The translations under genes were made by a program, and so were the position numbers. 64,000 bases of DNA from an uncultured Eubacterium sp. (GTDB lineage: Bacteria > Bacillota_A > Clostridia > Lachnospirales > Lachnospiraceae). The DNA lies in assembly GCA_948468465.1 (NCBI GenBank), contig CAOKJJ010000001.1, positions 1-64,000 of the forward strand. The letters run 5' to 3'. The notes beneath the pieces were generated by a model, which saw only the letters and a list, made by a program, of their open reading frames with translations, was not told the DNA's origin and made no database searches. Positions 7,628-54,640 of the stretch are shown piece by piece. Numbering within the stretch: position 1 is the stretch's first letter; each line of letters starts with the position of its first letter.

Positions 7628-7638
7628 CCCGCACTCTG

Positions 7639-22755: not shown

Positions 22756-23232
22756 TTATATTTCATATAGAATGTCGTCTATGGATAATATTGGGCAATC
22801 CATTTTTGAGTACAACATATCTTCAATTTCTTCAAAAAAGGTGATTGGCGTAACAATGACCGCATCTACCGCTGGAAGCTCATCGTCCGGTGTTACCACA
22901 TGAATATCCAGATGGACATTTGCCGCGTTTTTATCAATCCCATATCTGACCCTGATATCTGACCCGCTCAATTCCCTCAGCAAGGTTTCCCCGACAAAAT
23001 TCATACCATAAATAGCAATCTCCTTATAACCCTGTTTTTGCAGATATTCTTCAATGGATCCATTCTGCTGTTTCACCTTTACCCATTGGTTCATCATAAG
23101 ATATAACGCAAGATGCTTTTCTGACACTTTTGATATTTTATCAGCCTTGTCTTTCCAGATATTTCCCGTCAACACGGTTCCCAACGCTGTTCCCGCCATG
23201 AATGAAACAGCTGCCATTACTCCTTTTTTCAT
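22756..23232 (-). CDS. Membrane-anchored stand-alone Rossmann-like module
   Basis: The start is placed at 23232 (MKKGVMAAVSFMAGTALG), with AGGAG 7-8 nt upstream; the frame runs back to 23268. Residues 3-23 are a single hydrophobic segment ending in GNIWKDK, followed by a helical linker, then only the recurrent module (KEIAIYGMNFVGETLLREL, VRYGIDKNAAN, DAVIVTPITFFEEI). The hydrophobic segment could be an uncleaved anchor with the module in the cytoplasm. It is last in the acyl-transfer block, directly after the E3 gene, and is the only protein in this locus with a clear membrane segment. Role unknown; docking or scaffolding is my inference. Confidence 0.7.
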   Translation of the reverse strand: MKKGVMAAVSFMAGTALGTVLTGNIWKDKADKISKVSEKHLALYLMMNQWVKVKQQNGSIEEYLQKQGYKEIAIYGMNFVGETLLRELSGSDIRVRYGIDKNAANVHLDIHVVTPDDELPAVDAVIVTPITFFEEIEDMLYSKMDCPILSIDDILYEI

Positions 23233-23271
23233 ACAATGATCTCCTCTTCTCTTCTCATGTTCCTGCATCCA

Positions 23272-24645
23272 TTATTTCCCAACAATAGCCCTTGCCAGTT
23301 CACGCAATATTTCTCCCACAGTAGGATGCGGAAATATCATATCTGCAATATTCTGAATCTGCATTCTGCCGGCTATCATCATCTCTGCAGCCACGGCAAT
23401 CTCAGATGCACCATCACCAATCATTGTAAAACCAATCATTGTTTCAGATTGTGCATCCACCAGCATTTTTGCCTTTGCCCCATCCTTTTTGTGCTCTATA
23501 AAGTATCTGCCGCTATATGTCAGGGGAAGTTCTTTCGTTATGTATTGTATATTTCTATCGATACATTCGGTTTCCGTCAGTCCGACCGTTATCACTTCCG
23601 GTTCCGTGTATATGATTTTAGGGATGATATCATCATTCATGACTGCCTTTCTTCCGGTCAGATTATCTACTGCAACACGCGCCTGTTCATACGCAGCATG
23701 CGCCAGCATACTCTTTCCGGTCACATCTCCACAGGCAAATACGTTCCGCTTATTTGTTCTGCAGGTACGGTCAATCCAGATGCCTTTCGCATCATATGCC
23801 ACACCGCACTCTTCCAGCCCGTATCCCCGGAGCGCAGGTACCCTTCCAACAGCTGTCAGTACAACGTCAGCCTGCAGACAGGCATTCTTCCCGCCGGTTT
23901 CTACCAATATTTCTTTTTCCTGAAATTCCTTTACTTGTGAACATGTATCGATCCGAATTCCCTTCCGTTCAAGAATTCTTCTGTATGCTTTTTCAATAGC
24001 AGTATCCAGTCCGCCTCCGATTTTATCAGAAGCTTCAATCACAGTTACTTCACAGCCAGACGCATGAAAATAGCACGCTGCTTCCAGACCAGTCGGACCT
24101 GCTCCGACAATTACCATTCTGTGCGGAATACGGTCCAGCCGGAACAGTCCATCGCTGTCAATTATCTGATACCCTGACTTTTGATACAGATTCGTCATTT
24201 TCATTGCATGAGATCCGGTCGCTATGATGAGATATTTCGATCGCAACAACTGTTCCCCTACCGTTATTACAGCCTCTTCATCCACAGAATCAATATATGC
24301 AGTTCCATAATAAGTAGTAACGCCTACATTTTCTAATTTATACACAATTCCCTGCCGGAGCTTTTCAATCATTTGCTGATTCCGCTGCACAACCCGGGGC
24401 TGCTTTACCCAGCATCCGGATGCATCATCTGCAAAAATACCATCCTTCTGATAATCTCTGACAGATTCCGTTATATGCGCTAAGTGAAGATATCCTTTTA
24501 GAGGGATACATCCATAATTCAGACAGGTTCCACCCAATAGATCCTTCTCTATCAAAGCAGTCTTTAATCCCCGCATGCCTGCCCGTTCTGCAGCTTCATA
24601 TCCTCCAGGACCGCCACCTATAACAATTAAATCATATTCTTTCAT
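23272..24645 (-). CDS. lpdA: Dihydrolipoamide dehydrogenase (E3)
   Basis: 457 residues, normal length. FAD-binding GGGPGGYEAAERAG at the N-terminus, redox disulfide in GGTCLNYGCIPLK (the usual Ser before the final Lys is Leu), NAD-binding VGAGPTGLEAACYF, second FAD motif NVFACGDVTG, and C-terminal catalytic His in FPHPTVGE. It reoxidises a dihydrolipoyl group with NAD+. It has no lipoyl domain of its own. It follows the lipoate ligase by 9 bases and belongs with the E1 and E2-like genes upstream, so its substrate is presumably the lipoyl domain of the E2-like protein at 25662. Confidence 0.93.
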   Translation of the reverse strand: MKEYDLIVIGGGPGGYEAAERAGMRGLKTALIEKDLLGGTCLNYGCIPLKGYLHLAHITESVRDYQKDGIFADDASGCWVKQPRVVQRNQQMIEKLRQGIVYKLENVGVTTYYGTAYIDSVDEEAVITVGEQLLRSKYLIIATGSHAMKMTNLYQKSGYQIIDSDGLFRLDRIPHRMVIVGAGPTGLEAACYFHASGCEVTVIEASDKIGGGLDTAIEKAYRRILERKGIRIDTCSQVKEFQEKEILVETGGKNACLQADVVLTAVGRVPALRGYGLEECGVAYDAKGIWIDRTCRTNKRNVFACGDVTGKSMLAHAAYEQARVAVDNLTGRKAVMNDDIIPKIIYTEPEVITVGLTETECIDRNIQYITKELPLTYSGRYFIEHKKDGAKAKMLVDAQSETMIGFTMIGDGASEIAVAAEMMIAGRMQIQNIADMIFPHPTVGEILRELARAIVGK

Positions 24646-24654
24646 TTATTTCTC

Positions 24655-25665
24655 TCACTGCAATTTGCTTATTATTTTTTCGATTAAATCTGTTCCGATT
24701 TCTATACACTGTTTACTCAATCCATTTTTCTCCTTTATGAATTCCAGATACTGCCTGAGATTCCTGCTGTCAGGTTCTTTCCCTTTTAATCCGCTGAAAA
24801 AAGTTTCTATAAAATCTGATTCCATGCAGTCGGTTTCATACTTTACGGATTCAATATACCCCATTTTCTCTGTCAGCGAGAACCGGACCGTTCCCCATCG
24901 TTTCTCCACAATCCAGAAATCAGAAAAATCCTTACCCATAATCCAGGCATCATCGGCCAGCCTTTGATAAAGTTTCCGGATTTCACATTTTTGAATATCC
25001 TGCGTGACCACCTCTGCGCCGGCATAGGTGGACAGAAATTCCTCTTTCATATCTTCACGGATATTCTCAACACAGCACTTATTATTTATTTCACTCATAT
25101 TAATGATTCTGGCTTTAACAGAACGGATCCCTTTATTCACAAGCTTATACTGACCTGGCGTCAGACACATCTCTGCCATATTTTTATCCAGATTAATCAA
25201 AATCGTTCCATGCAATAGCAGGGCATGTGGATACCTTTTTTTTGCTGTTCCTGAAATTTTTCTGTTCTGAAGGGTAATAATATCATTTCTGCCGGAACAC
25301 ACTGCTTCTATCCCTCTTTTTTTCAGGACATTGAGCACGATTTTTAAATTATTTTCTACTGACACGCTATCTTCAGATGAAATAAAAGAATAATTCAGAT
25401 TGCCCAAATCCTGATATACCGCACCACCGCCAGTCAGCCGCCGTGCCAGTTTCACCTGATTCTTCCGCAGCGCTTCCATATTGCATTCGCGCACAGGATT
25501 CTGATTCCGTCCGATTACAACTGCCTTGTCGCTCTGCCATAAAAACATTCCGCATAATCTTTCCCCACGGGCTGTCTCAGAACTAACATGCTGGCACAGG
25601 ATATCTTCAGCCGCCAGGTTGTAATAAACGTCTGCAACTGCAGTTTCACAGATAAATATCTTCAT
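24655..25665 (-). CDS. lplA: Lipoate-protein ligase A
   Basis: 336 residues. Catalytic-domain signatures include LWQSDKAVVIGRNQNP, RRLTGGGAVYQDLGNLNYSF (lipoyl-adenylate loop) and the Lys-bearing RKISGTAKKR, followed by the accessory C-terminal domain typical of full-length LplA. It attaches lipoate to a lysine of a lipoyl domain using ATP. The ATG overlaps the TGA of the E2-like gene (ATGA), so the ligase is made together with its probable target. Confidence 0.92.
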   Translation of the reverse strand: MKIFICETAVADVYYNLAAEDILCQHVSSETARGERLCGMFLWQSDKAVVIGRNQNPVRECNMEALRKNQVKLARRLTGGGAVYQDLGNLNYSFISSEDSVSVENNLKIVLNVLKKRGIEAVCSGRNDIITLQNRKISGTAKKRYPHALLLHGTILINLDKNMAEMCLTPGQYKLVNKGIRSVKARIINMSEINNKCCVENIREDMKEEFLSTYAGAEVVTQDIQKCEIRKLYQRLADDAWIMGKDFSDFWIVEKRWGTVRFSLTEKMGYIESVKYETDCMESDFIETFFSGLKGKEPDSRNLRQYLEFIKEKNGLSKQCIEIGTDLIEKIISKLQ

Positions 25666-26723
25666 ATAATCACGCTTCCAGCCGGAACATCTTTAAAAAT
25701 ATTTTTTCCATTTGCAATAATTGAATCAGAACCAATCTTTACCCCCATATAAACAGTCGTTCCCATACCAATCAGTGTATTTTCACCAACAGTAACATTG
25801 CCTGCCAGCACTGCCCCCGGCGAAATTCGCACATGGCTGCCTATCCTGCAATTATGAGATACAATCGCGCCTGTATTAATAATACAGTCGTCACATATCA
25901 GGGCATCCGTTCCCACCGACGCATGTTCATAGATTAAGGTCCCCTCGCCAATCTGCGCGGTCGTTGCTATGCTTGCCGTGGGATGGATCAGTACAGGCGC
26001 AAAAAAATCATACGACTTGACCATTTGAAACAGCTTTTTCCGCATGTAAAATTGTTCCGACTGATTATCATTTGTAATGCTTCCTTTGGAAACAACTGCG
26101 GTCAGATATCCTTCTTTCCGAAGCTTTGGCAGGACTGTCTCATTCCCGATCACCGGAATCCCATTGATCAGTTCACCTTTTTTCCTGACAGGATCAACGA
26201 TTCCACAAATATTATATGCCTTATTCTGTATGATTAACTCCAGACACATTTGTGCAGGACCGCCACCCGAAACAATGATCAGATCATTTGCCCTGCTCCG
26301 TACAATCTCGGCGGCAGGCTGTTCTGTCTGTCTGATCAGCAATAATACATCTTTCTCCCTGATCAGCTCTTTTCCCTGAAGCAGGCTCAGGTCAACGTGG
26401 TGCTTTTGGACGAGTTCGCGCGCTTTATCTGTCAGATTGTAAGCATGCTCATGGGTTTTTCCAATGTTTACAAACGAGAAATCTGCCTGATCCGTGATCA
26501 CTGCCATTTTCTCCCCAACCTTTAAATCCGTGCCAGCCTCAATATTATAAAATACATATCCTTCACACCCGGCCAGAACATCCTCTGTTTCTTTTGTCGT
26601 TTCAAGTGATGCTACTGCCTGATCTTTTTGAACATAGCTTCCATTTTCTACAAGCCATACGCCAAGTGTGACTACATCATCATTTGTACCAATTCTTGGA
26701 ACTACAACATCATATTCACGCAT
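25662..26723 (-). CDS. Lipoyl domain + subunit-binding domain + NeuD/PglD-type acyltransferase fusion
   Basis: 353 residues. Residues 3-78 are a lipoyl domain (VVVPRIG…, WLVENGSYVQKDQ) with the presumed lipoylated Lys44 in LETTKETED, where other proteins have ETDKA. Residues 98-130 look like a peripheral subunit-binding domain (TDKARELVQKHHVDLSLLQG, EKDVLLLI), the part of E2 that docks E1 or E3. From about 146 the protein is a NeuD/PglD-like sugar acyltransferase: Rossmann-like DLIIVSGGGPAQMCLEL, then left-handed beta-helix hexapeptides from IHPTASIATTAQIGEG to the end, with the catalytic-type His in IVSHNCRIGSHVRISPGA. The normal E2 catalytic domain (HxxxDG) is absent. Inferred role: pass an acyl group from lipoyl-Lys to an amino or hydroxyl sugar. 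Confidence 0.88.
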   Translation of the reverse strand: MREYDVVVPRIGTNDDVVTLGVWLVENGSYVQKDQAVASLETTKETEDVLAGCEGYVFYNIEAGTDLKVGEKMAVITDQADFSFVNIGKTHEHAYNLTDKARELVQKHHVDLSLLQGKELIREKDVLLLIRQTEQPAAEIVRSRANDLIIVSGGGPAQMCLELIIQNKAYNICGIVDPVRKKGELINGIPVIGNETVLPKLRKEGYLTAVVSKGSITNDNQSEQFYMRKKLFQMVKSYDFFAPVLIHPTASIATTAQIGEGTLIYEHASVGTDALICDDCIINTGAIVSHNCRIGSHVRISPGAVLAGNVTVGENTLIGMGTTVYMGVKIGSDSIIANGKNIFKDVPAGSVII

Positions 26724-28671
26724 TCACGACCCTCCTGACTTCTTTCATTATGTTATCCTTACCAGGCAATACATTCCTTTCCAATTCTTCACCACAAGGA
26801 ATCACACAATCTAACGCCGCAATACGCGCATATTTCCGCCCTGCCATTCGTTCCGCCAGTCCGGCAATAACCTCAGCTCCCCATCCGTTTCTCAGGGTAC
26901 CTTCTTCCAGCGTTAAAATGTTTGTACACTCCCCAATATATTCCAGCATAACCTCCATATGAACCGGACTAATCTGTGTATGCACGATAATATTTACCAG
27001 CAATTCATCCTTTATCATCAATTCCCTGGATGCGTCCATCGCAGCTTCAACGCTGCCTCCATACGTGATCACAACAGCATCTGCAGATTCTTCCCTGTCC
27101 AGTGTTAAGTTATATACAGGAAATGCACCGCCCTTCTCCGTTACATAGAACATATTTATTTTTTCATTTTCTTCCACATACAGTTTTTCCCCATACATCT
27201 TCTTATTCTCAATCAATATTGTAGGGGAATTCATATTTTTCAATATACGGAAAAGGAGCTGTCCTGCATTATGGATTCTGGATAAAGCCATGATCCTGAG
27301 ATTTGGAATCCCCATGAAATATTTTTCAAGCGACTGGCTATGCGTGGCCCCATACCCGCGTCCGCCTCCCATAGGCAGGCGGAGCATAAGAGGGACCTGT
27401 ATCTGCCCTGCATACATCCAGTTGAATTTGGCTGCGTGGTTCAGCAGCTGGTCGAAACATAATGTGACAAAATCACCAAACATGACCTCGACAACAGGCT
27501 TCATGCCTCCCATGGCCAATCCAACCGCCATACCAGTAAAACCGGCTTCACTAATGGGAGTATTTATCACTCTGTCTGAAAATTCCTTTGTAAGCCCCTT
27601 TGTCACTTTAAATGCCCCTCCGTATGGATCTCTGATATCCTCTCCTAAAAGAACGATCCTTTCAGAGTGCTTCATTGCATTATGCAATCCAGTATTCAGA
27701 CTTTCTACACAGCGCATATTATCATGGTTCAGCAAACTATCCGATGGACCATCTTCCCATTTTTCCACATAAATATCCTGGGACAGATCCGCTGTATCAT
27801 TCCTGGCTTGTGTAACCGCCTCCCTAAGTTCCTCCTCCACCTCTTTTTTTATCTGATGCAGCATTTCTGCGTTTAATTTTTTACCTGCAATCTTTAGTGG
27901 ATCTTTTTTACTCCATTCTATGATCTCGTCATGATTCCGAAAATCGTCCCCTTTACTATGCGGACCTAGTCTGTATGTATGTATTACCTGGCAGAATGGC
28001 TTTCGCGCCGTTCTTACGTATTTGAAAGCTCTTTGCAGCGATTGATTTAAGATAAGCACATCATTTGATGTAACTTCATCCGTTTTTATTCCAAAAGATG
28101 CAGCTCTGGCGGGAATACTTCCTGCAACACCCTCCTGCATCCGGGTACTCATGGCATATCCATTATCCTCAATAATATAAAGGATCGGAATATCATACAA
28201 AACTGCCAGATTAAAACTTTCGTATACTACACCCTGTCCCAGCGTGCCGTCCCCTAAAAACACAACCACGACAGAGGTATCCGCTCCCTTCCTTTTATTA
28301 GCCAGCGCCAGACCGGTTGCATTTGGTACAATCCCTCCCTGCACTCCGTTTGTATAAAAATGTCTGTAACATATATGCTGGCTCCCTCCCCGTCCTTTGC
28401 ACATCCCAGACTTTTTACCCATGATCTCAGAAAATAAAATCCGCATATCGCCCGAATATGCGATAAAATGTCCATGACAGCGATGATTGCTGAACACATA
28501 ATCTTCATCGAGGACATGATTCATCACCGCAACTGCGTCAGCTTCCTGTCCGATACATGTATGTGTCGTGCCTTTCAGCTGATTCTCTGAAAACAATTCC
28601 AGCAGTGTTTCTTCAAAGCGGCGTATCCGATACATGTGTTTAAAAAATATATTTATGTTATTATGCTTCAT
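26716..28671 (-). CDS. 2-oxoacid dehydrogenase E1, alpha and beta subunits fused
   Basis: About 650 residues. An ATG at 28671 has GAGG 9 nt upstream; a GTG at 28686 sharing a base with the upstream stop is an alternative. The alpha half has YRIRRFEETLLELF, THTCIGQEA, and the thiamine diphosphate motif GDGTLGQGVVYESFN … EDNGYAMST. The beta half starts near 345 (LNTGLHNAMKHSERIVLLGEDI) and contains ISEAGFTGMAVGLAMGG, GDFVTLCFDQLLNHAAKF and PMGGGRGYGATHSQS. This matches heterotetrameric-type E1 of pyruvate, acetoin or branched-chain dehydrogenases and not the 2-oxoglutarate type. It would decarboxylate a 2-oxoacid and load the acyl group on the lipoyl domain of the next gene, which overlaps by eight bases. 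Confidence 0.92.
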   Translation of the reverse strand: MKHNNINIFFKHMYRIRRFEETLLELFSENQLKGTTHTCIGQEADAVAVMNHVLDEDYVFSNHRCHGHFIAYSGDMRILFSEIMGKKSGMCKGRGGSQHICYRHFYTNGVQGGIVPNATGLALANKRKGADTSVVVVFLGDGTLGQGVVYESFNLAVLYDIPILYIIEDNGYAMSTRMQEGVAGSIPARAASFGIKTDEVTSNDVLILNQSLQRAFKYVRTARKPFCQVIHTYRLGPHSKGDDFRNHDEIIEWSKKDPLKIAGKKLNAEMLHQIKKEVEEELREAVTQARNDTADLSQDIYVEKWEDGPSDSLLNHDNMRCVESLNTGLHNAMKHSERIVLLGEDIRDPYGGAFKVTKGLTKEFSDRVINTPISEAGFTGMAVGLAMGGMKPVVEVMFGDFVTLCFDQLLNHAAKFNWMYAGQIQVPLMLRLPMGGGRGYGATHSQSLEKYFMGIPNLRIMALSRIHNAGQLLFRILKNMNSPTILIENKKMYGEKLYVEENEKINMFYVTEKGGAFPVYNLTLDREESADAVVITYGGSVEAAMDASRELMIKDELLVNIIVHTQISPVHMEVMLEYIGECTNILTLEEGTLRNGWGAEVIAGLAERMAGRKYARIAALDCVIPCGEELERNVLPGKDNIMKEVRRVVNA

Positions 28672-28685
28672 CCATACAGTCCTCA

Positions 28686-30767
28686 CTAAATCATCCCGAG
28701 AAATGTCCTTGTGGTGTCTGGCACCAGTTCTGACAGTCTTTCAATATCGCTATTTTCTATATATTTACGCACCAAAGATGCACTAACCGGTTTTCCATAA
28801 AATGTTTTGCGTGGGATTTCAATAAATTCTATGCCATATTGCGGGAGTATTTTTTTCATTGCCGTATTATATTGATTTGTCACTTCGTCTTCAGGCTCTT
28901 CCCCAACAAAACGATATTTAATGCCCAGCTGCGGCGCTATTTTTTCTGCAAACGTCGTAATGTCCTGCTCCGTATGCCTGACCAGATCTTCACTTGTTTC
29001 CTTAAGAAAATATTCCGGAAAACTCAGTTGCGATAAAATAAACGGCCCGCTTGGCACTACCAGAACATTCCCTAAATCGGCAACCCCTTCCTTCACCATA
29101 GATAACCTTTCTGTAAATGAAAAATCTGATTTATCTTCTTCTACCACAAAAATAATCAGAAAGTCCACATACCTTAACGCCTGCTCTGTTAAATAACGAT
29201 GGCCGTTTGTAAACGGATTGCAATTCATCACAATGGCTCCGGTTCTGTGATACTTGCCAAAATCATAGTCAGTAAAAAAGCGGTCAAGATACAACAATTT
29301 AATATAATTTTCTTCTTTTTCTATCAGTTCCCCCTGTCTGACCGTCTTTTCATCAAGAACTGGTTCTATAGCTTCATAAATTGTGTCAGCATATACCTCA
29401 TTTATCTTATGGTTACAATGCATCGGATTGTCCACCATCCACTCTGCCTTTACCTCATTGTTCTCTATAATGGAACTAATCTCCAGATATTTTATCCCTT
29501 CTATCCCATCAGCCGGACGATCGATAACGACAATGTCCCCTCTCTTTAATGGTATTGTGGCAATACGGGGAATGCAGTTATATCCTATATACATTCCCAT
29601 CGCACCATAATTTACGCATCTGACTGCTTTTCCCTTTTCACACAGACGCTTTTGCAGAATGCTTTCAATCGTATAGCAATCTTCTACATCATGACCATAG
29701 ATATAGCAGGGTCCGGTAAAGTAAATACTCCTCTCATAATCGTCCGGCTGGCCAGTTGTTGTCCGCTCTCCATTTGTCACATTGTAATATTGACTGCGGC
29801 AATCTCTCAGGCTTAGCATTCCCCCATGATATTCAATTCCGACTGGTAGATGCATAATCGCATCTGCATAATCTGCGCTATATAAATCATCAAAAAAACC
29901 CTGATACATGGATTCGGGCAGAATATAACTATAAGCCTCACCCATCATCGCAAATTTATCCTGATTTTTTTTAATTAACGATCCGTAGTATGGAGAAACG
30001 CTATCCAGTGTCATGGCAACAATGCTGACGCCTTTCTCATATATTTCTTTCAGATAATCCGAACATTGATCATATAAATAACTTTCTACATTTACACGAC
30101 AATAAAAAAAAGTTTTCATTTTGTCATATGCGGCATTGTGATCCCCCCATATCATTTTAAACAATGTCCCGCAGGCACGGATCTCATTTTCCTCAACAAA
30201 CAACAGCATATCCACTTTATCCGCATAGGAAATCACTTCCGAATCATCAATACACGCTGCTGATATATACTGACTTTCCAGATAGGACTGCATTTTTCTG
30301 TAAATCCTGTGTCTTATGACAGAATGCCCTTTTGGACGTACAAGCGCTATCTTATCTTCGCCATGAAAACAGAAAATACGGCCTTTTCTAATTGCAGATA
30401 ACTCAAAATCCAAAATCAGGGTTTCATCCCAACGCATATATTCTCCAAGTAAGTTATTTTCTTTTGTAAGAACCGGAATCGTACTGATGTATTCTTTTTC
30501 TGCAAAAATCTTCTTCGCTTTCAGATATTCCCCAGCATATACAAAGGCAAATTCTCTATTAATGCGAACCCTGTCCCATCCATTTCCATGCGCCCTGAAA
30601 ACATCGCCTGTACTGATGATTCCAACAAACCCGCCGCTGGCTTCTTCATAATAGATTGTATTTGAATGGCTTTCCTCCAGAGCTCTTTTTACAGTCTCAA
30701 TGAAAACATTTTCTTCATTCTTCTCCAGCTCTATAACCGTCAGCTGATTTCTTTCCGTAAATAACAA
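28686..30767 (-). CDS. CBS-like + central domain + citrate-lyase-ligase (CitC)-like adenylyltransferase fusion
   Basis: 693 residues. The first 120 resemble paired CBS motifs (GGFVGIISTGDVFRA, ISTIPVLTKENNLLGEYM). The middle part contains YFTGPCYIYGHDVEDC and IATIPLKRGDIVVIDRP, reminiscent of an SGNH-like fold, at low confidence. From residue about 510 to the end it closely follows the C-terminal domain of [citrate lyase] ligase CitC: GAIVMNCNPFTNGHRYLTEQ (HxGH-type nucleotidyltransferase loop), SFTERLSMVKEGVADL, FPEYFLKE, YRFVGEEPEDEVTNQYN and PVSASLVRKYI. CitC activates acetate with ATP and acetylates a protein-bound thiol. No citrate lyase genes are nearby. It directly precedes E1, so it probably serves the acyl block. 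Confidence 0.75.
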   Translation of the reverse strand: MLFTERNQLTVIELEKNEENVFIETVKRALEESHSNTIYYEEASGGFVGIISTGDVFRAHGNGWDRVRINREFAFVYAGEYLKAKKIFAEKEYISTIPVLTKENNLLGEYMRWDETLILDFELSAIRKGRIFCFHGEDKIALVRPKGHSVIRHRIYRKMQSYLESQYISAACIDDSEVISYADKVDMLLFVEENEIRACGTLFKMIWGDHNAAYDKMKTFFYCRVNVESYLYDQCSDYLKEIYEKGVSIVAMTLDSVSPYYGSLIKKNQDKFAMMGEAYSYILPESMYQGFFDDLYSADYADAIMHLPVGIEYHGGMLSLRDCRSQYYNVTNGERTTTGQPDDYERSIYFTGPCYIYGHDVEDCYTIESILQKRLCEKGKAVRCVNYGAMGMYIGYNCIPRIATIPLKRGDIVVIDRPADGIEGIKYLEISSIIENNEVKAEWMVDNPMHCNHKINEVYADTIYEAIEPVLDEKTVRQGELIEKEENYIKLLYLDRFFTDYDFGKYHRTGAIVMNCNPFTNGHRYLTEQALRYVDFLIIFVVEEDKSDFSFTERLSMVKEGVADLGNVLVVPSGPFILSQLSFPEYFLKETSEDLVRHTEQDITTFAEKIAPQLGIKYRFVGEEPEDEVTNQYNTAMKKILPQYGIEFIEIPRKTFYGKPVSASLVRKYIENSDIERLSELVPDTTRTFLGMI

Positions 30768-31974: not shown

Positions 31975-32994
31975 TTACTTCCATATTTCATCAAAACCCT
32001 GCTTCCAGACGGATGTAAGGCTGCTCCGGCTACAGCTTTTCGCACCGTCCAGTTTTCTCAATACGTAACAGAAACAAATCCGATACTTTAATAATATAAG
32101 CAGCATTCTGCTTTTGGACACCTTACAAACTTCTAAACCATATCGTGCCATTTCTGCTTTTTTTGCAACTGTATTTTTATATCCGATTGTACTTCTATAA
32201 ATACCTTCCCTGAGCCGGTTACATAAAAACTGCTCTCCTGCTTCGCCCGCTAACGGATATAAGTACAACATGAAACAGTTCGCCGTCTTTATTACACTGT
32301 CTGGAAGCCACCAGTAATCTTTTTGGTCTGATTTTGCATAAAAACGTGAACGCCGGTTGCATCCACGATAGGAACTCTCCCAAAAGACAACTGGCATATA
32401 CAGCAAATCAGCTCGTGCTGCCAGTTTCCCTAAAACATAAGAATGTGGATAAATCCCATATTTTTTCTGCTCATAAAAAAACTTTTTAAAATTTCCCTTC
32501 AGCCAGTACTCCCTGTTTACAAGAAACCCTGTTGGATGGACAGGAACACCTGCCATTACCGCAAAAGCTTCTTTTCCTTTTTCTAAAACTTCATAATCCG
32601 TATTTTCGCTGATCGTATGTGACAATGACGCTGCCGATTTTCCAACATAACCACCTGCTACTGAACTATTTTCCAGGATATCCAGCAGACGTACAAGAAT
32701 ATGGATCTGAATATCGTCTCTGTCGAGAATATGTAAAAGATATTTTCCATTTCCACAACAGATTGTCCGGTACCAGTTTGGACAGGCACCTGCATTTTTC
32801 TCATTTTTCACCAGCACCACTTTTTTACCCGCCAATGGTTGTAACTGATCAAAATTTTTGTTGTCCGAGCAGTCATCACAAATAAAAATGTTATATCTGT
32901 CATCCTCTATAGTCAGAATATCCTGAACAAGCTTTGCACATTTCTGCCCCCTGTTATAACTGGAAATACAGATACTCAGCAATATATCTTTCAC
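31975..32994 (-). CDS. Glycosyltransferase family 2
   Basis: 339 residues. The GT-A start ILLSICISSYNRGQKCA, then IFICDDCSDN and the metal-binding LLHILDRDDIQ are typical. No Rossmann-like module is fused here, unlike most transferases of the left part. The ATG overlaps the TGA of wecB (ATGA), so it is co-translated with that gene. Confidence 0.82.
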   Translation of the reverse strand: MKDILLSICISSYNRGQKCAKLVQDILTIEDDRYNIFICDDCSDNKNFDQLQPLAGKKVVLVKNEKNAGACPNWYRTICCGNGKYLLHILDRDDIQIHILVRLLDILENSSVAGGYVGKSAASLSHTISENTDYEVLEKGKEAFAVMAGVPVHPTGFLVNREYWLKGNFKKFFYEQKKYGIYPHSYVLGKLAARADLLYMPVVFWESSYRGCNRRSRFYAKSDQKDYWWLPDSVIKTANCFMLYLYPLAGEAGEQFLCNRLREGIYRSTIGYKNTVAKKAEMARYGLEVCKVSKSRMLLILLKYRICFCYVLRKLDGAKSCSRSSLTSVWKQGFDEIWK

Positions 32995-34130
32995 CTGTCT
33001 GCCAGACTCCTTCCGTGATTATTTTTTTCCCAGTCCAGTATATGTCCCACAATCCGCTCACTGGCATGACCATCCCCATAAGGATTCACTGCTTTTGCCA
33101 TCCTGTTGTACTCATTTATATCTGTCAGCAGCCGGGCAGTTTCATGATACACTGCCTCCCCACTCACACCAATTACTTTCACCGTTCCAGCTTCTACGGC
33201 CTCCGGCCGTTCTGTCTCCCTGCGCAGTACCAGCACTGGCTTGCCACAGGCCGGAGCTTCTTCCTGCAGGCCGCCCGAATCGGTTATGACCAGAAAACTT
33301 CTGGCCATAAGATTATGCATATCCTCGACATCCAAAGGAGAAAGCAAATGCACCCGGTCTGTATGTTCCAGTATGGGCAGCACAATATCCCGCACTGCCG
33401 GATTCATATGAACCGGATAAACAACCCCAATATCCCTGTAATCCTGTACAAGCCGTTTTACCGCGCCACATATATCCGCCAGCGGCTGTCCCAGATTTTC
33501 CCTTCTATGTGCCGTCATCAGGATCATTCTTTTTCCCGTAAAATCAATCTGCCGCAACAGATTGTCCTTAAATATATAACGCTCTCTTATCGTTGTGCGG
33601 AATGCATCGATAACCGTATTGCCCGTCACAAAGACATTTTCTGTAATATTTTCTCCTGCAAGATTTCTGCGGTTTTTTTCAGTAGGAGCAAAATGCAAAG
33701 ACGCAATCTTTCCTGTCAGACATCTGTTCATTTCCTCAGGAAAAGGTGAATATTTATTATAAGTACGCAGCCCTGCTTCCACATGTCCAACCGGTATCTG
33801 CTGATAAAAAGCTGCCAGTGCCGCCGCAAAGGACGTATTCGTATCACCATGAACAAGCACCATATCCGGTTTCTCCATAGAAAGCACATCCTCCATGCCT
33901 GACAGAACAAGAGCTGTTACCTCAGTCAGTGTCTGGCCCGGCTGCATAATATCCAGATTGTATCTGGCTGTTGTACCAAATATATCCATAACCTGCCTGA
34001 GCATTTCCCGATGCTGTCCTGTCAGGCAGACCAGATTTTCGATATCCGGATTTTTTTCCAGCTCTCCGATCAATGGACACATCTTGATCGCTTCCGGCCT
34101 TGTTCCAAACACGCTCATTACTTTTATCAT
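32991..34130 (-). CDS. wecB: UDP-N-acetylglucosamine 2-epimerase
   Basis: 379 residues, normal length for the non-hydrolysing enzyme. It shows SVFGTRPEAIKMCPL, LVHGDTNTSFAAALAAF, GHVEAGLRTYNKYSPFPEE and DSGGLQEEAP. It converts UDP-GlcNAc to UDP-ManNAc in the cytoplasm. Together with the dehydrogenase at 36640 it would give UDP-ManNAcA. It overlaps both neighbours by four bases. Confidence 0.95.
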   Translation of the reverse strand: MIKVMSVFGTRPEAIKMCPLIGELEKNPDIENLVCLTGQHREMLRQVMDIFGTTARYNLDIMQPGQTLTEVTALVLSGMEDVLSMEKPDMVLVHGDTNTSFAAALAAFYQQIPVGHVEAGLRTYNKYSPFPEEMNRCLTGKIASLHFAPTEKNRRNLAGENITENVFVTGNTVIDAFRTTIRERYIFKDNLLRQIDFTGKRMILMTAHRRENLGQPLADICGAVKRLVQDYRDIGVVYPVHMNPAVRDIVLPILEHTDRVHLLSPLDVEDMHNLMARSFLVITDSGGLQEEAPACGKPVLVLRRETERPEAVEAGTVKVIGVSGEAVYHETARLLTDINEYNRMAKAVNPYGDGHASERIVGHILDWEKNNHGRSLADR

Positions 34131-36639: not shown

Positions 36640-37878
36640 TCATAACCGGTACACTTTATCCAGACTGCATATGTTTCTGGTATCCAGAATCACTTTATTG
36701 CGAATCTGTTCCATTTTTTCAACAATATGCGCATGGCCTGTCATAATCACTACCATATCGATATCGTTTAGAAAACGATCAAAATCCTCATATTGATTTT
36801 CGACCAGATGCAGCCTGACAAGCGGATCATACACTTTGATTCCTGATGCCAGATGCCGTTTCATACAGGATAAAAGCTGCAGCGCAGGACTTTCCCGCGT
36901 ATCATCAACATTCTCTTTATACGTCAGTCCATACAGGCCAACTCGGCTCACGTCTCTGATTCCTTCTTTATCCATAATTTCCGCAATTCGTTCCAGGACA
37001 AATTCCGGCATGGAATCATTGATTTTTCTGGCCGCTAAAACAATATTGGCAAGTCCCGGATAATCGCCCACCAGAAACCAGGGATCCACAGAGATACAAT
37101 GTCCGCCAACGCCCGGTCCGGGCATCAGTATATTTACACGTGGATGCATATTCGCGATCCGGATGATTTCATATACATCCATATCATCCGCCCTGCAAAT
37201 CTTAGCCAGCTCATTTGCAAATGCTATATTGATATCCCGGTATGTATTCTCAACCACCTTTGTCATTTCTGCTGTCCTGAGGCCGGTTACCACAATCTCG
37301 CCCCTGCAGAATGTCTGGTATAACATTTTTATCCTGTTTCCGGCTTTTATATCATCAGCGCCAATCGTTCTGTTATTGCATACCAGTTCCTCTATCATAC
37401 GTCCTGGTATAATACGTTCCGGAGCATGTACTACGTATATATCATCCCCGCATTTCAGCCCTCTTTTCTCAATAGCAGGATAAATACACTTGTGTATGGT
37501 ACCCGGTGAAACTGTGGATTCTATCACAATAATATTTCCTTTTACACACACATCCAGTATCCGCTCTACCGCATCCATTACGTAGGAAGCATTTACCTTC
37601 TTTTCACGCCGCAGGTAAGGCGTAGGAACCGCAATGATGTATACATCTGCCTTTTGATATTCTTCACTAAATCGTATATGGTGATCCATCGCCTGATGGA
37701 ACAGCTCCTGCAGCCCGTTCTCAATGAACGAAATCACACCGCTTTCAAGCTGTCTGACCAGGCTGGCATTGCTGTCAGTCCCAACAACCTCCGTTCCATG
37801 CGCGGCAAGCATAATGGCAGTCGGAAGTCCGATATATCCCAAACCGATAACATTTACCTTCAATGCCGTCTCTTCCAT
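36640..37878 (-). CDS. wecC: UDP-N-acetyl-D-mannosamine dehydrogenase
   Basis: 412 residues. NAD-binding NVIGLGYIGLPTAIML, then IAVPTPYLR, ESTVSPGTIHK, ENTYRDINIAFANELA with the substrate-binding residues, and the active-site Cys in GPGVGGHCISVDPWFL. It oxidises UDP-ManNAc at C6 twice to UDP-ManNAcA. The pairing with wecB two genes on supports this substrate, though UDP-GlcNAc dehydrogenases look similar. Confidence 0.92.
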   Translation of the reverse strand: MEETALKVNVIGLGYIGLPTAIMLAAHGTEVVGTDSNASLVRQLESGVISFIENGLQELFHQAMDHHIRFSEEYQKADVYIIAVPTPYLRREKKVNASYVMDAVERILDVCVKGNIIVIESTVSPGTIHKCIYPAIEKRGLKCGDDIYVVHAPERIIPGRMIEELVCNNRTIGADDIKAGNRIKMLYQTFCRGEIVVTGLRTAEMTKVVENTYRDINIAFANELAKICRADDMDVYEIIRIANMHPRVNILMPGPGVGGHCISVDPWFLVGDYPGLANIVLAARKINDSMPEFVLERIAEIMDKEGIRDVSRVGLYGLTYKENVDDTRESPALQLLSCMKRHLASGIKVYDPLVRLHLVENQYEDFDRFLNDIDMVVIMTGHAHIVEKMEQIRNKVILDTRNICSLDKVYRL

Positions 37879-37897: not shown

Positions 37898-39823
37898 TTA
37901 CATCCTTTTTATCTCCCCGTATCCGGCGGAATACATTTTATAGTCAAACGATACTGTAAAAGGATGTGTTGCATAATCCATAACCGTTATCCGGTTATCC
38001 TCAAGCCGTATTTCTCTGATATGCTCTGTTTCCCCATACCGGACTTTTGCCATCAGGCAGTTTCTGCTGCAATATAACAGCTGCGCTTCTGACCTTTTTT
38101 CCATTCCAAACACGCCATGAAAACAATTCTGCTCCTGCCCTGGAATATGAATCGTATTATGTGCAAATACACTTCTGAATCTGTCCCTGATCACAGGAAA
38201 CGCCGTATATACATAAGTACCGGGATCTCTTGTAATATACTTACCATCAACCATCAATTCTATAGAAAGTTTGTCATTGTGCGTATGCCCGGTGTATACT
38301 GCATATTTTGCGGTATCAGTGACCATACTTAAAAACATGGTTCTGCTGTAAAATAAAACAAGTCCGAATTTGTGAAAATAGTGAATTTTCAATCCCTCCA
38401 ACAGAGATTGCCCAGATGTACTGTTGTAAATCATTGTCTGTCTGCGATATGGATATCTCCCTTGCATATTCTCGTACGTTCCGTAGTTTTCAAGTGTTGT
38501 ATTATATGATTTACCATGCAGAATCTTTGAACCTGACATTGCTCTTATAAAACCTGATTCCAATGGAAATTCGCTCCCATATCCGGAAAATCTGTCCTTC
38601 CCAAATAAACCATCCATAGAGGATAACAGCGTTCTGTGATCCAACGGATTATCCTTTCCCTGATATCCGTCAGATGTATTCATAAGAGATAATCTGACCA
38701 GTCTGCCATTATCGTTATCCCCCACCTGTATGACCTCATGATTCTGTTTCGTTATCGTATCTGTAAAAACACCCATATTATAGATCCGATCAATGTACCA
38801 CTTAGGAAAAAAACCGATTCGGCCCAGATCATATTTCTGTCTGTCTGGCGCTGTCAGTCCTTTGACCATACCGGCATGATACTGCTCAAATACATTTCTT
38901 TTTTTTGAATTTAACACGCCAAATACAAGTGACGTCGCATATAGCACAATTTCTGCGCTCAGCCTGTGATAACAAGCCGAACCTTCAAAATTAGAACCTT
39001 CTATGTAAAATTGCTTCCGGGTCTGCGCAATCAGCTCCTGTACCCCGAATACCAGACAAGCGTCAGTCCAGTCATCAGAATCCAGATAAGCTGCTGCAAA
39101 AATAATACCTGCCAGATCGGCCAGATAATGGTTAGAACCTGTATTGTCAGATACTTCCAGATGATTCATCACAAATTTTAAACTTTGGTAAATATGCTTT
39201 TCAAATTCTGCCTGAAAATCCGTATCCAGATAACCGCTACGGTCCATCTGTCTGAAGAGATCGTAAGCAACCAGAAGGTTGACCATTCTTATTGATACTT
39301 CCATTGCAACAGACCATTGGACAGTCCTGCCTACAGGATTCGTCTCCCAAAAATCTGTCAGCTCATCTTTAAATTCCATCACAAATGCGCTCCGATACTT
39401 TTTTTCCGTACCTGCCAGAACAGCTAATTGAACCACATGATAGAATCTGCCCAGTTCCCACGGACATTTGATATCCACACCCGGTATCCTGCCAATCACA
39501 GTCTGGCACTTTTTCCATGAACGATATTTTACCGGTGAGAAAAAAAAACCGCTTTTATAATCTGTCAGCCAGTTTATCGGATCGTATTTTTCACTGCATT
39601 TTTTTCGAAGTCTTTTTGCTATCCTCTGTCCATATTTCACCATATAAGGGTCAGAATATCTTTTTCCCAGTAAACCGTTTGCCCGCAGCTGATAATCCAC
39701 CTGGACAAAGCCGCTGCCAAGCAAATCAAACTGGTGCGCCATAAAATGCCGGCACAGGTATTCCAGATTTTCCCTGCAGGAATTGTTGATCACTAATTTA
39801 TGATAACTAATATATGAATGCAT
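37898..39823 (-). CDS. Heparinase II/III-family protein (uronic-acid polysaccharide lyase-like)
   Basis: 641 residues without a signal peptide. An N-terminal alpha/alpha barrel is suggested by helical blocks such as VQWSVAMEVSIRMVNLL and NHYLADLAGIIFAAAYL; the C-terminal heparinase II/III domain has YTGHTHNDKLSIELMVDGK and RDPGTYVY. Members of this family without export signals are common beside wecC and asnB in O-antigen and capsule loci. It may act on a uronic-acid-containing lipid-linked or nucleotide-linked glycan, or as an epimerase; neither is shown. Confidence 0.8.
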   Translation of the reverse strand: MHSYISYHKLVINNSCRENLEYLCRHFMAHQFDLLGSGFVQVDYQLRANGLLGKRYSDPYMVKYGQRIAKRLRKKCSEKYDPINWLTDYKSGFFFSPVKYRSWKKCQTVIGRIPGVDIKCPWELGRFYHVVQLAVLAGTEKKYRSAFVMEFKDELTDFWETNPVGRTVQWSVAMEVSIRMVNLLVAYDLFRQMDRSGYLDTDFQAEFEKHIYQSLKFVMNHLEVSDNTGSNHYLADLAGIIFAAAYLDSDDWTDACLVFGVQELIAQTRKQFYIEGSNFEGSACYHRLSAEIVLYATSLVFGVLNSKKRNVFEQYHAGMVKGLTAPDRQKYDLGRIGFFPKWYIDRIYNMGVFTDTITKQNHEVIQVGDNDNGRLVRLSLMNTSDGYQGKDNPLDHRTLLSSMDGLFGKDRFSGYGSEFPLESGFIRAMSGSKILHGKSYNTTLENYGTYENMQGRYPYRRQTMIYNSTSGQSLLEGLKIHYFHKFGLVLFYSRTMFLSMVTDTAKYAVYTGHTHNDKLSIELMVDGKYITRDPGTYVYTAFPVIRDRFRSVFAHNTIHIPGQEQNCFHGVFGMEKRSEAQLLYCSRNCLMAKVRYGETEHIREIRLEDNRITVMDYATHPFTVSFDYKMYSAGYGEIKRM

Positions 39824-39846: not shown

Positions 39847-40989
39847 TTAATTATGCTCTGTATTCCAGTCATGACACCAGTAACAGTATTCCCGGCAATA
39901 TTCCGCAAGATCTACCCGTCCCGGCACCAGCTTCGATATTTCCCAGGCAGGAACTTCTCTGATATATTCTGTATCAAACTCCAGCCCTAACGCCTCTTTT
40001 ACACATTGGTATACGGGCAGCTCCAGGGTAGCCCTTCTCTCCCCTATTTCCTGTATTTCTTCCGGATCAATCTCTAATATTTTCAGAATTCTTTCGCTGA
40101 TTTTTCTCATGACATTATTACACGGATTTGCTGGCTCATAAAACAAACGCTGTTTCTTATATTCCTGCCGGATGTAATCCATGATTTTTACATCACAATC
40201 CTGATCCCGCTTTTCCCATTTGGTAAAACATGCCTCCGCATTTTTTTCTATCTCCTCTTTGCTGTACACATCCGATTTCAGATACTTAACAATTCTATCA
40301 ATATCACGTTCTCCCTCTTCCCACAGGCGGTCAATATTGGTATCGCTGTACATAAACATGCCATTATCCATTCCGGTACCGGAAGGATTTTTCCAACCGC
40401 TCCGGCCTTTTCCTATTACTGCCTGCGGAAATAAAAATTTTCCCAAACCAAAAACATTCGGAATGCATATGACTCTTCCGTTTACATGTGAAGATAGATA
40501 CTGAAAGGACAATCTTTTATCAAACTGATTATTTTCCTGCACATCCTGCGATATAAGCACATCACAGTTCTTTAGCAGCTGCTCCCTGATATAACCCTGT
40601 TTCAGATGATAAATTCTTGGAAGCGGATAAATCCAGTATTGTGAAAGAAATGTTTTTGAAGTCTGTAAATATTGCCTGATCCAGTGCTTATAACAATTTC
40701 CATGCAGCAGCACAACTTTCCTGCCTAAAGCCTGCCAGGGAATAATGTCTCTTAGTTCCTCCAAACCATATTCCAGTAATTGTTCTGCTATCGCTTTATA
40801 ATAAATATTGCTTGCTACGACAACAGGGTACCTGCTGCAATTTTCCTTCGTCGGGCGATATACATCCCTGCCATAGAATCTATCCACAGGCGCATTATCT
40901 AAAAAATATTTTACATTATAAAATTTTGAAATTGTATAAAACGAAGACCTTGCAACTACTCCCGTACCCCATATGACAATGTCCTTCAT
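39847..40989 (-). CDS. WcbI-like putative acyltransferase with N-terminal Rossmann-like module
   Basis: The start is put at 40989 (MKDIVIWGTGVVARS), 20 bases after the AsnB stop, with GGCAGGAG just upstream; the frame runs on to 41082. Module: residues 1-90 (KYFLDNAPVDRFYGRD, YPVVVASNIYY). The remainder resembles WcbI: VVLLHGNCYKHWIRQYL (the HGNC/Q motif), a run around DVLISQDVQENN, and the late RLFYEPANPCNNVMRKISERIL. WcbI-type proteins bind CoA derivatives and are linked to acylation of capsule sugars. Similar to the protein at 59981. Confidence 0.65.
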   Translation of the reverse strand: MKDIVIWGTGVVARSSFYTISKFYNVKYFLDNAPVDRFYGRDVYRPTKENCSRYPVVVASNIYYKAIAEQLLEYGLEELRDIIPWQALGRKVVLLHGNCYKHWIRQYLQTSKTFLSQYWIYPLPRIYHLKQGYIREQLLKNCDVLISQDVQENNQFDKRLSFQYLSSHVNGRVICIPNVFGLGKFLFPQAVIGKGRSGWKNPSGTGMDNGMFMYSDTNIDRLWEEGERDIDRIVKYLKSDVYSKEEIEKNAEACFTKWEKRDQDCDVKIMDYIRQEYKKQRLFYEPANPCNNVMRKISERILKILEIDPEEIQEIGERRATLELPVYQCVKEALGLEFDTEYIREVPAWEISKLVPGRVDLAEYCREYCYWCHDWNTEHN

Positions 40990-41008
40990 CTCCTGCCTTC
41001 TTTCCACA

Positions 41009-45861: not shown

Positions 45862-46932
45862 TTATATAAAATTAGGATGGATTTCCTGATCCGGATATAA
45901 GTAGTCCCATATTACTTCATTTACCGGATCGCAGCGGCATCCGCCCGGACATTCGTCCACACATATCTGCTGAATCCGTTTTTTTCTTTTGTCCCCATGC
46001 CATATTTCCATAAAGGAGTTTTCATATATGCTGCCAATAATATCCTTCTCCTGCTCATGGTTGGAACATATATACATATTGCCATCAGACCACAAATTAG
46101 GATCCAATGCATGTCCGTAACATATTTTATAGGTTCTGGACTTCTCTGCTAAGGTTTTTTCATATTGGTTATACTTTGTATAAACCTGATACTCATCCGT
46201 CTCCAGCTTTTTAGCCAGTTTCATCTGATACAGGACGCTTTCTTTATCGGTTGCCGGAAACACCCTGATGCCCACTGAACTTCCATCCCCGTCAATCAGT
46301 GGCTTTATTTCGAAATAGTCGACACCGACCTCTTTCCATAACTTTGCTGCCGCCTCTATCGATGTATAATTCTGATCATAAAATACAAATTGCGTCCCTA
46401 TTGTAGGAAATTTCTGACCCAGTTCTTTTTTCCCTTTTACAAGCGCCCGAATATTTTCAACCACGTTATCAAAATCATTTCTGACCTGATGAACGATCTC
46501 ATGCTCCTTACGATTACTTGCAGTAACCGAACATCTTACAAAAGTACATGTCGCCAGCATAGCCTTACGTATTTTCTCTGACATTCGTGAAGCGTTTGTA
46601 AAAATACCAATTTCCAGCCCCATTTCATGAACAGAATAAAGGATTTCCTCTATCTGTGGGTGCAGCAATGGTTCTCCGCTTCCACAAAATGTTACTGCCT
46701 TTAAACCAGCCTCTTTCGCCTCTCCAAGAAATTTTAAAAGAGCTTTTGCATCAATTGTATCAATACGTGCAGTATCTGCAGTTACAAATTCTGAATTGCA
46801 AAAAATACATTTATGACAACAATAATCTGTCAATCCTACAACCATATGTACAGGATATGCATCCCCTGTTTCCTTTATATTTACCAGACGATCCGCATGA
46901 TATATTACCTTTTCCGCACCTAATCTGTTCAT
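45862..46932 (-). CDS. Radical SAM protein with C-terminal SPASM-like cysteine region
   Basis: 356 residues. The [4Fe-4S]-SAM motif CxxxCxxC is in DYCCHKCIFCNSEF (around residue 34), followed by GSGEPLLHPQIEEIL, the usual GGEP-like strand. The C-terminal third has a second cysteine set (CYGHALDP, MYICSNHEQ, CVDECPGGCRCDP) as in SPASM auxiliary-cluster enzymes. Substrate unknown; in this setting radical chemistry on a sugar (epimerisation, dehydration) or on a peptide acceptor is conceivable. Paralogue of the protein at 49316. Confidence 0.88.
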   Translation of the reverse strand: MNRLGAEKVIYHADRLVNIKETGDAYPVHMVVGLTDYCCHKCIFCNSEFVTADTARIDTIDAKALLKFLGEAKEAGLKAVTFCGSGEPLLHPQIEEILYSVHEMGLEIGIFTNASRMSEKIRKAMLATCTFVRCSVTASNRKEHEIVHQVRNDFDNVVENIRALVKGKKELGQKFPTIGTQFVFYDQNYTSIEAAAKLWKEVGVDYFEIKPLIDGDGSSVGIRVFPATDKESVLYQMKLAKKLETDEYQVYTKYNQYEKTLAEKSRTYKICYGHALDPNLWSDGNMYICSNHEQEKDIIGSIYENSFMEIWHGDKRKKRIQQICVDECPGGCRCDPVNEVIWDYLYPDQEIHPNFI

Positions 46933-46996: not shown

Positions 46997-48112
46997 TTAT
47001 AACGAATTTCTTTCTCTTATAATTTCAGATATATAACAAACTTCTTCTTCTGTTAAACTCCCATATATCGGCAGATCCAGAACCGTCTTTTTCATTTCAT
47101 CTGCATGTTCTGTTTTTCTGACATACCCCCGGTCTTTGTAACAGCTATAATCACAAGTCAGTCTGTCATAAAGCTTACGGGTTTCAATCCCGTTTTTACG
47201 GAGTTTCTGCCATAATTCATCTCTTGTCAAACCATATTCTTTGGTCACTCTGATCGGAAAATATGCATAGTTATAATCAACATCGGGACAATATGGATAT
47301 GTATGGATTCCTTCTATATCCTTTAAGCATTTCCCATACATTTCAGCCAGATGCCTGCGTTTTGCAACCTCCTTATCATGTAAAGGCAGATTAACAATCC
47401 CCATGGCTGCCTGAAATTCATTCATTTTGGCATTGATGCCACAGAGCAGAACATCATTATTATTTTCTCCATAATACACCCCAAAGTTTCTATATAATTC
47501 GATCTTCTCACGCAGTTTTGGATCCTGATAGACCAGTCCGCCGCCTTCAATAGAATTAAACACTTTGATTGCATGAAAACTGTATATTGTCATGTCTCCA
47601 TACATGCAAAGCGGTTTTCCATTTACTTTTGTTCCAAATGCCTGCGCCCCATCGTAAATGATTTTCAGATTGTATTTCTTTGCAATCTCCTCAAATTTAT
47701 GTATATTACAGGGAATACCAAAAATATGCGGCGTAATGATTGCACTTGTATCCGGAGTGATTAATTCCTCAATATTATCGGGATTCAGATTGTATGAATC
47801 ATCAATATCTCCAAATATGGGTGTAAGTCCATTTTGAACAATGGCATTTGTTGTTGAAACAAACGTAAAAGGTGATGTAATCACAGACCCTTTCAAATCC
47901 ATCAGTTTAATGGCAAGTAACAATGCAGAATGACCATTGACAAGCAGATCGATATTGTTGCATTGCAGGTAATCTGCCAGCATTTTCCTGAATTTTTTCA
48001 GCTTCATGCCATTGTTTGTCATGAAACCAGTTTCCCAAATTGATTTTATTTCCTGTATATAGCTTTCATACGATGGCATAGCCGGCATAGTTGCCCTAAT
48101 CTTTCTCAACAT
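46997..48112 (-). CDS. DegT/DnrJ/EryC1-family sugar aminotransferase
   Basis: 371 residues. PLP-binding pattern: IIYDGAQAFGTKVNGK holds the Asp that pairs with the cofactor ring, and SFHAIKVFNSIEGG holds the catalytic Lys. ITSPFTFVSTTNAIV and INAKMNEFQAAMG are also typical. It transfers an amino group, usually from glutamate, to a 3- or 4-keto nucleotide sugar. The SFHA-KVFN-EGG form resembles VioA/FdtB-like enzymes of dTDP-amino sugars, but no dTDP-hexose genes are in the window. Confidence 0.9.
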   Translation of the reverse strand: MLRKIRATMPAMPSYESYIQEIKSIWETGFMTNNGMKLKKFRKMLADYLQCNNIDLLVNGHSALLLAIKLMDLKGSVITSPFTFVSTTNAIVQNGLTPIFGDIDDSYNLNPDNIEELITPDTSAIITPHIFGIPCNIHKFEEIAKKYNLKIIYDGAQAFGTKVNGKPLCMYGDMTIYSFHAIKVFNSIEGGGLVYQDPKLREKIELYRNFGVYYGENNNDVLLCGINAKMNEFQAAMGIVNLPLHDKEVAKRRHLAEMYGKCLKDIEGIHTYPYCPDVDYNYAYFPIRVTKEYGLTRDELWQKLRKNGIETRKLYDRLTCDYSCYKDRGYVRKTEHADEMKKTVLDLPIYGSLTEEEVCYISEIIRERNSL

Positions 48113-52243: not shown

Positions 52244-52334
52244 TACGTTCCGCCCTCGTAGCTGTCTTTATTTCACTATACGAATTTCCAATCGCCGCCC
52301 CTGTCAGAATACTGTAGACATTGACTCTTTGCAT
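52227..52334 (-). CDS. Possible 35-residue coupling peptide
   Basis: An ATG overlaps the stop of the upstream gene as TAATG, and the frame (MQRVNVYSILTGAAIG…) bridges the 90-base gap and ends inside the start of the sulfotransferase gene. It would keep ribosomes moving between the two genes. There is no recognisable domain and chance is possible. Confidence 0.25.
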   Translation of the reverse strand: MQRVNVYSILTGAAIGNSYSEIKTATRAERNGTDG

Positions 52335-53866: not shown

Positions 53867-53908
53867 CGCTCAATTTCCCTGCCAATTTTCATTGATATAT
53901 ATTTCTGA

Positions 53909-54414: not shown

Positions 54415-54450
54415 GACTGAAAGGAAGATATATCAGGGATTTTTATTTTT

Positions 54451-54551: not shown

Positions 54552-54640
54552 TAAAAACGGAAAAATTCACTGTTTTACAGCCAAAATACTTTCTGCCATA
54601 TCTTTCTAACACATTTTAAGCTCAATTTTTGAAAAAAGAG

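Follow-up and report, generated by a model that had tools for sequence, protein, structure and literature searches.

Gene organization of the block

The 64,000-nucleotide stretch analyzed here (the window; positions 1 to 64,000 of contig CAOKJJ010000001.1, assembly GCA_948468465.1, from an uncultured Eubacterium sp. of the Lachnospiraceae) contains a block of six minus-strand open reading frames (ORFs) that runs from position 30767 down to 22756, in which neighboring genes either overlap or lie within a few bases of one another (Table 1). An initial annotation, made from the sequence, described consecutive or overlapping genes for a CitC-like ligase, a fused 2-oxoacid dehydrogenase component (E1), a lipoyl/subunit-binding/NeuD fusion, a lipoate-protein ligase (LplA) and a dihydrolipoyl dehydrogenase (E3); the six ORFs and their Pfam and NCBIfam matches agree with this description. 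The best NCBIfam names all fall under their cut-offs: NeuD_NnaD (TIGR03570) for the fusion protein (160.1 bits, cut-off 160.8), lipoyltrans for LplA (252.8 bits, cut-off 280) and lipoamide_DH for E3 (407.3 bits, cut-off 408.8). The E3 sequence contains CLNYGC, which we take to be its redox motif, and a C-terminal HPT, whose meaning as a motif we likewise presume. The last ORF encodes a protein without a Pfam match, and a homolog occupies the equal position in locus L012 (13381-13941, E 1e-28). In the CitC-like protein, the Citrate_ly_lig match is confined to the C-terminal 180 residues; the region of about 500 residues that precedes it gives a weak CBS match only and sits in a glycan locus.

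Conservation of E1 and the fusion protein

A search of genome contigs returned at least 592 stretches, at least 473 of them encoding a relative. The locus counts given here refer to the best 80 that were kept, some of which lie on short contigs. E1 is encoded in 78 of the 80 loci, as a fused chain in 26 and as split subunits in 52, and in 72 it immediately precedes the fusion gene on the same strand. The two loci without E1 are L023, whose contig begins within the gene, and L066, which matches the NeuD part only. Because E1 recurs near the fusion gene so regularly, the arrangement in the window is not due to chance. The pair of E1 and lipoyl-carrier sugar acyltransferase is found in bacteria of at least eight phyla. 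The CitC-like gene abuts E1 in the window, yet no CitC match (E ≤ 1e-4) occurs in the stretches examined at any of the 80 loci, so the ligase is not a conserved part of the block and we reject it as a member of the system.

The fusion looks rare in Bacillota. At least one fusion-bearing genome was found among 392 of the order of genome G011 (E ≤ 1e-30) and at least one among 391 of the class of G001 (E ≤ 1e-75), in each case the centre genome only; these surveys scored at most five candidates per genome, and the counts are lower bounds. A further 65 genomes of the order of G011 match over the NeuD part only. A search in the other direction, starting from the linked E1 beta region (13-row alignment) and scoring part of the candidates, gave at least 4/249 and at least 7/345 genomes, two of them the survey centres. 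Six of its nine non-centre loci pair the fusion with E1 (L173, L178, L179, L182, L183 and L184), and L185 holds an ordinary E1. A plasmid search matched 77 records, none of which spans 80% of the query; the 15 matches listed cover the NeuD part only.

Features of the fusion protein and E1

Pfam finds no E2 acyltransferase domain (PF00198) in the window fusion protein, and the classical domain with its HxxxDG motif is present in 0/80 fusion loci vs 14/20 control stretches, chosen around ordinary E1s from genomes of the set. The subunit-binding domain of the window protein also has no Pfam match. However, residues 6-136 align with the lipoyl domain and peripheral-subunit-binding domain (PSBD) of three ordinary E2 sequences (HHalign probability 97%, E 1.1e-10), and the predicted structure places helices at residues 99-133. 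At E ≤ 0.1, Pfam recognizes E3_binding in 2/46 family members and PglD_N in 46/46. The lysine predicted to be lipoylated is kept in 79/79 sequences and the NeuD base histidine, which aligns with the mutated H141 of PerB, in 80/80.

The coenzyme A (CoA) site was compared between 46 fusions and 31 stand-alone NeuDs (loci L088-L116, plus L044 and L054). Over a C-terminal G-x-P-A/C segment, in which the stand-alone proteins keep G in 30/31 and P in 24/31, the fusions stop earlier or differ, and none of 81 fusions (80 loci and the window) carries GxP[ACS]. Residues particular to the 46 aligned fusions are H247, S289, A307, M/Q320 and N338; over the 80 loci, N338 and M/Q320 are each found in 80, S289 in 78 and A307 in 77, and stand-alone NeuDs mostly carry other residues at these four positions. 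For the CoA-bound relative Pcryo_0637, PMC8040287 describes a cis-Pro213 turn that shifts upon CoA binding and gives His142 as the likely base. By our own reading, the GxP segment would be the counterpart of this turn. Its loss favors a donor that is not CoA, though it is no proof of one.

In a tree of the beta region that set 31 chosen loci and the window against 20 rows of ordinary E1s, two genes appearing twice, the E1s that accompany the fusion group into a single clade (support 100/100). GDG...N, alpha H243, beta E380 and beta H449, which we take to serve thiamine diphosphate (ThDP) binding and catalysis, are kept across the clade. Typical of it are alpha T40 (76/78), beta G404 and the loop R443-G-Y-G-P-T-H-S-Q, in which the window E1 has A447 in place of P. 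T40 aligns with human pyruvate dehydrogenase E1 alpha F61, a residue whose numbering and role in the pocket we presume. Speculatively, this position may indicate that members of the clade have a common substrate that is not pyruvate.

Glycan context

The block lies within a glycan locus that encodes glycosyltransferases, methyltransferases, a 2-epimerase, a nucleotide-sugar dehydrogenase (349 bits against PRK11064, under the cut-off of 459) and an aminotransferase. Across the set, sugar genes (DegT, sugar transferase, sugar epimerase/dehydratase, NeuB) occur in 62/80 fusion loci vs 1/20 controls; the profiles were built from fusion-locus clusters and so find those by construction, and the same profiles were used on the controls. 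Pfam identifies representatives of the first three clusters as DegT, Bac_transf and Epimerase.

Individual loci are more specific. In L182, PseB (508 bits, cut-off 408) and PseC (460 bits, cut-off 424) equivalogs surround E1 and the fusion, together with NeuB/PseI-like and PseG-like genes, both under their cut-offs; the only PseH match elsewhere in this genome scores 23 bits. L183 encodes a UDP-GlcNAc 6-dehydrogenase-type protein (TviB model, 512 bits, under the cut-off of 592), L-2-hydroxyglutarate oxidase (547 bits, cut-off 299), DegT, E1 and fusion, and a GFO_IDH oxidoreductase. Such a gene set would be expected for a 3-amino-uronic acid, and the fusion here occupies the acyltransferase position. 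The family profile covers the whole length of the L183 fusion (161 bits), and Pfam at 1e-4 detects hexapeptides only; L184 resembles L183 by ORF order alone. In L004, PseI (467 bits, cut-off 340) overlaps E1. Given these pathway contexts, N-acylation of a nucleotide amino sugar by the fusion is the best reading.

Two proteins near the block, L004:14247-14939 and L182:15444-15998, are related at 141 bits and presumably resemble LmbE/PIG-L deacetylases by motif; removal of an acetyl group before a fresh acylation would hint that the new group is not acetyl. In Lewinellaceae, a stand-alone NeuD directly follows the fusion (L044:11095-11724 and L054:11112-11738, the latter ending with a GNPAK tail), an arrangement that suggests two different acylations.

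The glycan region of the window also contains heptose-type genes (52334-57098: HldE-like, GmhB/nucleotidyltransferase fusion, GHMP kinase). Two radical SAM proteins (45862-46932 and 49316-50377) flank the aminotransferase and an FkbM methyltransferase, and heparinase II/III-like (37898-39823) and WcbI-like (39847-41082) proteins lie within the biosynthetic locus.

Table 1. Features of the block and of the surrounding glycan locus in the window
Feature	Coordinates	Strand	Remarks
CitC-like ligase, ~500-residue N-terminal extension	28686..30767	-	693 aa; Pfam Citrate_ly_lig
Fused E1 (alpha + beta), ThDP-dependent 2-oxoacid dehydrogenase component	26716..28686	-	656 aa; Pfam E1_dh, Transket_pyr and Transketolase_C on a single chain; clade; catalytic positions
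Lipoyl + peripheral-subunit-binding + NeuD/PglD acyltransferase fusion, in E2 place	25662..26723	-	353 aa; Pfam Biotin_lipoyl, PglD_N, Hexapep
Lipoyl domain, residues 1-80, predicted lipoyl-lysine K44 in ETTKET	26484..26723	-	
Peripheral-subunit-binding-like segment, residues 95-135	26319..26441	-	HHalign to E2s; predicted helices
PglD_N + left-handed beta-helix acyltransferase domain, residues 146-353, predicted base H290	25665..26288	-	
Lipoate-protein ligase LplA	24655..25665	-	336 aa; Pfam LplA-B_cat, Lip_prot_lig_C; NCBIfam
Dihydrolipoyl dehydrogenase (E3)	23272..24645	-	457 aa; Pfam Pyr_redox_2, Pyr_redox_dim; NCBIfam
Small protein after E3, no assigned function	22756..23268	-	170 aa; L012 homolog
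WecB-type UDP-GlcNAc 2-epimerase	32991..34130	-	TIGR00236, 500 bits, cut-off 210
Nucleotide-sugar dehydrogenase, nearest UDP-ManNAc dehydrogenases	36640..37878	-	TIGR03026, 417 bits, cut-off 190
DegT-family sugar aminotransferase, possible amino-sugar acceptor source	46997..48112	-	

Lipoate supply

LplA and E3 genes accompany the fusion in the window and in the Bacillota loci L001, L002, L004 and L012; LplA precedes the fusion in L001 and follows it in the others. Twenty-eight of the 80 genomes were searched for E2, LplA and E3, 13 for GcvH and seven for LipA. E3 is matched in 27/28 genomes and E2 was found in 23/28, the exceptions being G002, G004, G005, G011 and G020. In G001, G002, G004 and G011, the sole LplA match and the sole E3 match (E ≤ 1e-40) are the locus copies, GcvH was not found, and E2 gave either no match or a 30-bit partial one. 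LipA did not score over the cut-off in any of the seven genomes searched; lipoate would therefore be scavenged, and in these four genomes used only by the block. By contrast, G006 and G021 have no LplA at the locus and encode the ligase near an ordinary E2 elsewhere in the genome.

Proposed mechanism and alternatives

We think it probable, from sequence comparison, that the block encodes a 2-oxoacid dehydrogenase-like complex in which a NeuD/PglD domain replaces the E2 catalytic domain, and that the acyl group of a 2-oxoacid likely passes through the lipoyl arm directly to the amine of a nucleotide sugar. LplA would attach lipoate to K44 of the fusion, and E1 would decarboxylate the 2-oxoacid and reductively acylate the arm. 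The acylated arm would swing into the active site of a trimeric NeuD, where H290 would aid attack of the sugar amine on the thioester. The subunit-binding segment would dock E1 and/or E3, and E3 would reoxidize the dihydrolipoyl group with NAD+. The ordinary cellular E3 and lipoylation enzymes would serve the fusion in most phyla; Bacillota without another lipoyl system would carry E3 and LplA in the operon. A single, conserved and possibly non-acetyl acyl group is suggested.

Several observations weigh against this proposal. LplA and E3 are encoded in only 4/80 loci; the other 76 have no LplA and no close E3 homolog in the stretches examined, with distant E3-like matches only in L075 and L079 (E ~5e-6). 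The initial annotation gave the complex its own lipoylation and reoxidation enzymes, a claim borne out in the window and in the four Bacillota loci. LipA is also below the cut-off in three Bacillota genomes with loci lacking LplA, and the gene absences are weak because the four genomes are metagenome-assembled genomes without stated completeness. None of the four sugar-gene types is found in 18/80 loci, several of them on short contigs, and the Flavobacteriaceae loci L007, L010, L015 and L019 have no recognized sugar genes despite spanning 15-21 kb. G004 encodes a PseH-like GNAT (88 bits, cut-off 93.1) some 11.5 kb downstream, so the fusion there is not a simple PseH replacement, which weakens PseH as the replaced step for L004; a different amine would be its target. 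The monomer model of the fusion (predicted template modeling score 0.57; block values of the predicted local distance difference test 51-77 from residue 251 on) says little on how the lipoyl arm would enter.

L181 is an exception. Its E1 belongs to the fusion-linked clade, and the partner (6385-7632, minus strand) joins a lipoyl domain to a PF00198-type catalytic (CAT) domain that reads HRVVTG where HxxxDG is expected. For the initial annotation, a standard E2 domain beside homologous blocks would have counted as a refutation; none was found at the 80 fusion loci, and L181 comes partway to such a case. The E1 clade is thus not exclusive to NeuD, and the lipoyl arm is modular, with NeuD its common head and not the sole one. 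Nearby genes encode a phosphopantetheinyl transferase, a B12-binding radical SAM protein and an ATP-grasp protein. The L181 lipoyl region, used as a query, gave three matches, two CAT-type (one a near-copy of the L181 protein) and one NeuD-type. L180, on a 4.3-kb contig, has a clade E1 and no fusion in view.

Ordinary E1-E2-E3 complexes make acyl-CoA, and the left-handed helix domain could take CoA as acceptor here as well, leaving sugar acylation to separate enzymes. The E2-type domain of L181 and the known CoA complexes of PerB, PglB and PglD, members of a domain family that binds CoA, speak for this, but a domain that makes acyl-CoA fits poorly with the retained PglD_N domain and NeuD histidine, the missing GxP and the sugar genes, and we regard it as unlikely. 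Alternatively, NeuD may use acetyl-CoA as usual, with a separate or regulatory role for E1 and the lipoyl domain. Armless NeuDs do exist, as the NeuD-part matches in the order of G011 and the two Lewinellaceae loci illustrate. This explanation nevertheless has to contend with the conservation, across phyla, of both the physical fusion and the neighboring E1, as well as with the fusion-typical N338, S289, A307 and M/Q320 and the loss of GxP, and seems to us quite improbable. Very improbable is carboligation by E1 to give a branched-chain sugar, with the lipoyl protein a mere oxidation partner: ThDP enzymes such as those of the YerE type build branched sugars, and the clade has a loop of its own, but this E1 belongs with the 2-oxoacid dehydrogenases that reduce a lipoyl group, and it is paired with a protein that carries lipoyl and subunit-binding parts and an invariant acyltransferase histidine.

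Direct acyl transfer from the lipoyl arm thus remains our preferred explanation. The earlier idea of a complex repurposed for sugar decoration is partly supported: conservation, context, the replaced domain and the catalytic residues kept all favor a complex that feeds a sugar acyltransferase; the CitC-like gene drops out of it. We conclude that the block represents a genuine and widespread variant, undescribed in the literature searched, of the 2-oxoacid dehydrogenase complex, and that it likely acylates sugars via acyl-lipoyl. We lean slightly toward a broader interpretation, a new class of acyl transfer that dispenses with CoA in at least eight phyla, with acyl-lipoyl as direct donor and a trimer-cored 2-oxoacid dehydrogenase, for which some Bacillota would scavenge lipoate for a surface glycan alone and attach an unusual acyl group. 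We know of no precedent for lipoyl-bound acyl groups feeding sugar modification directly, as they would here. In line with the initial annotation, which knew of no system of this composition, no description of such a complex was found in the open-licence PubMed Central (PMC) literature, searched largely at title and abstract level. One candidate was set aside: in PMC4875605, 'lipoylation' of flagellin glycans refers to fatty acids, not lipoate. If the proposal is correct, a family named, where it is named at all, as NeuD-type sugar acyltransferase would draw on another donor and possibly transfer another acyl group. New N-acyl groups would then be predicted on bacterial surface glycans, lipoate supply would be linked to glycan structure in anaerobes, and the fusion would represent a single-chain E2 whose acceptor specificity was swapped through domain exchange.

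Comparison with known systems

The block shares E1, a lipoyl domain, a subunit-binding segment, LplA and E3 with the pyruvate, acetoin and branched-chain 2-oxoacid dehydrogenase complexes. It differs from them in that a NeuD/PglD left-handed beta-helix (LbH) acyltransferase replaces the E2 CAT domain with its HxxxDG motif, in that its E1s form a separate clade, and in that most of its loci contain sugar genes. With the nucleotide-sugar acetyltransferases PglD, PerB and NeuD, the fusion has in common the PglD_N and LbH fold, the base histidine, and a neighborhood of aminotransferase, dehydratase and sugar transferase genes; unlike them, it has an N-terminal lipoyl and PSBD arm and an E1 neighbor and lacks the C-terminal GxP. 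LpxA and LpxD, LbH acyltransferases that depend on acyl-acyl carrier protein, also use a donor tethered to a carrier protein and share the LbH fold by fold match, whereas the predicted donor of the fusion is an acyl-lipoyl domain of the same chain, loaded by E1. Glyceramido transfer by the ATP-grasp enzyme PglB2 of Neisseria is a further route to an acylated 4-amino sugar without CoA, as is proposed for the block; the enzyme types are unrelated, and PglB2 is driven by ATP.

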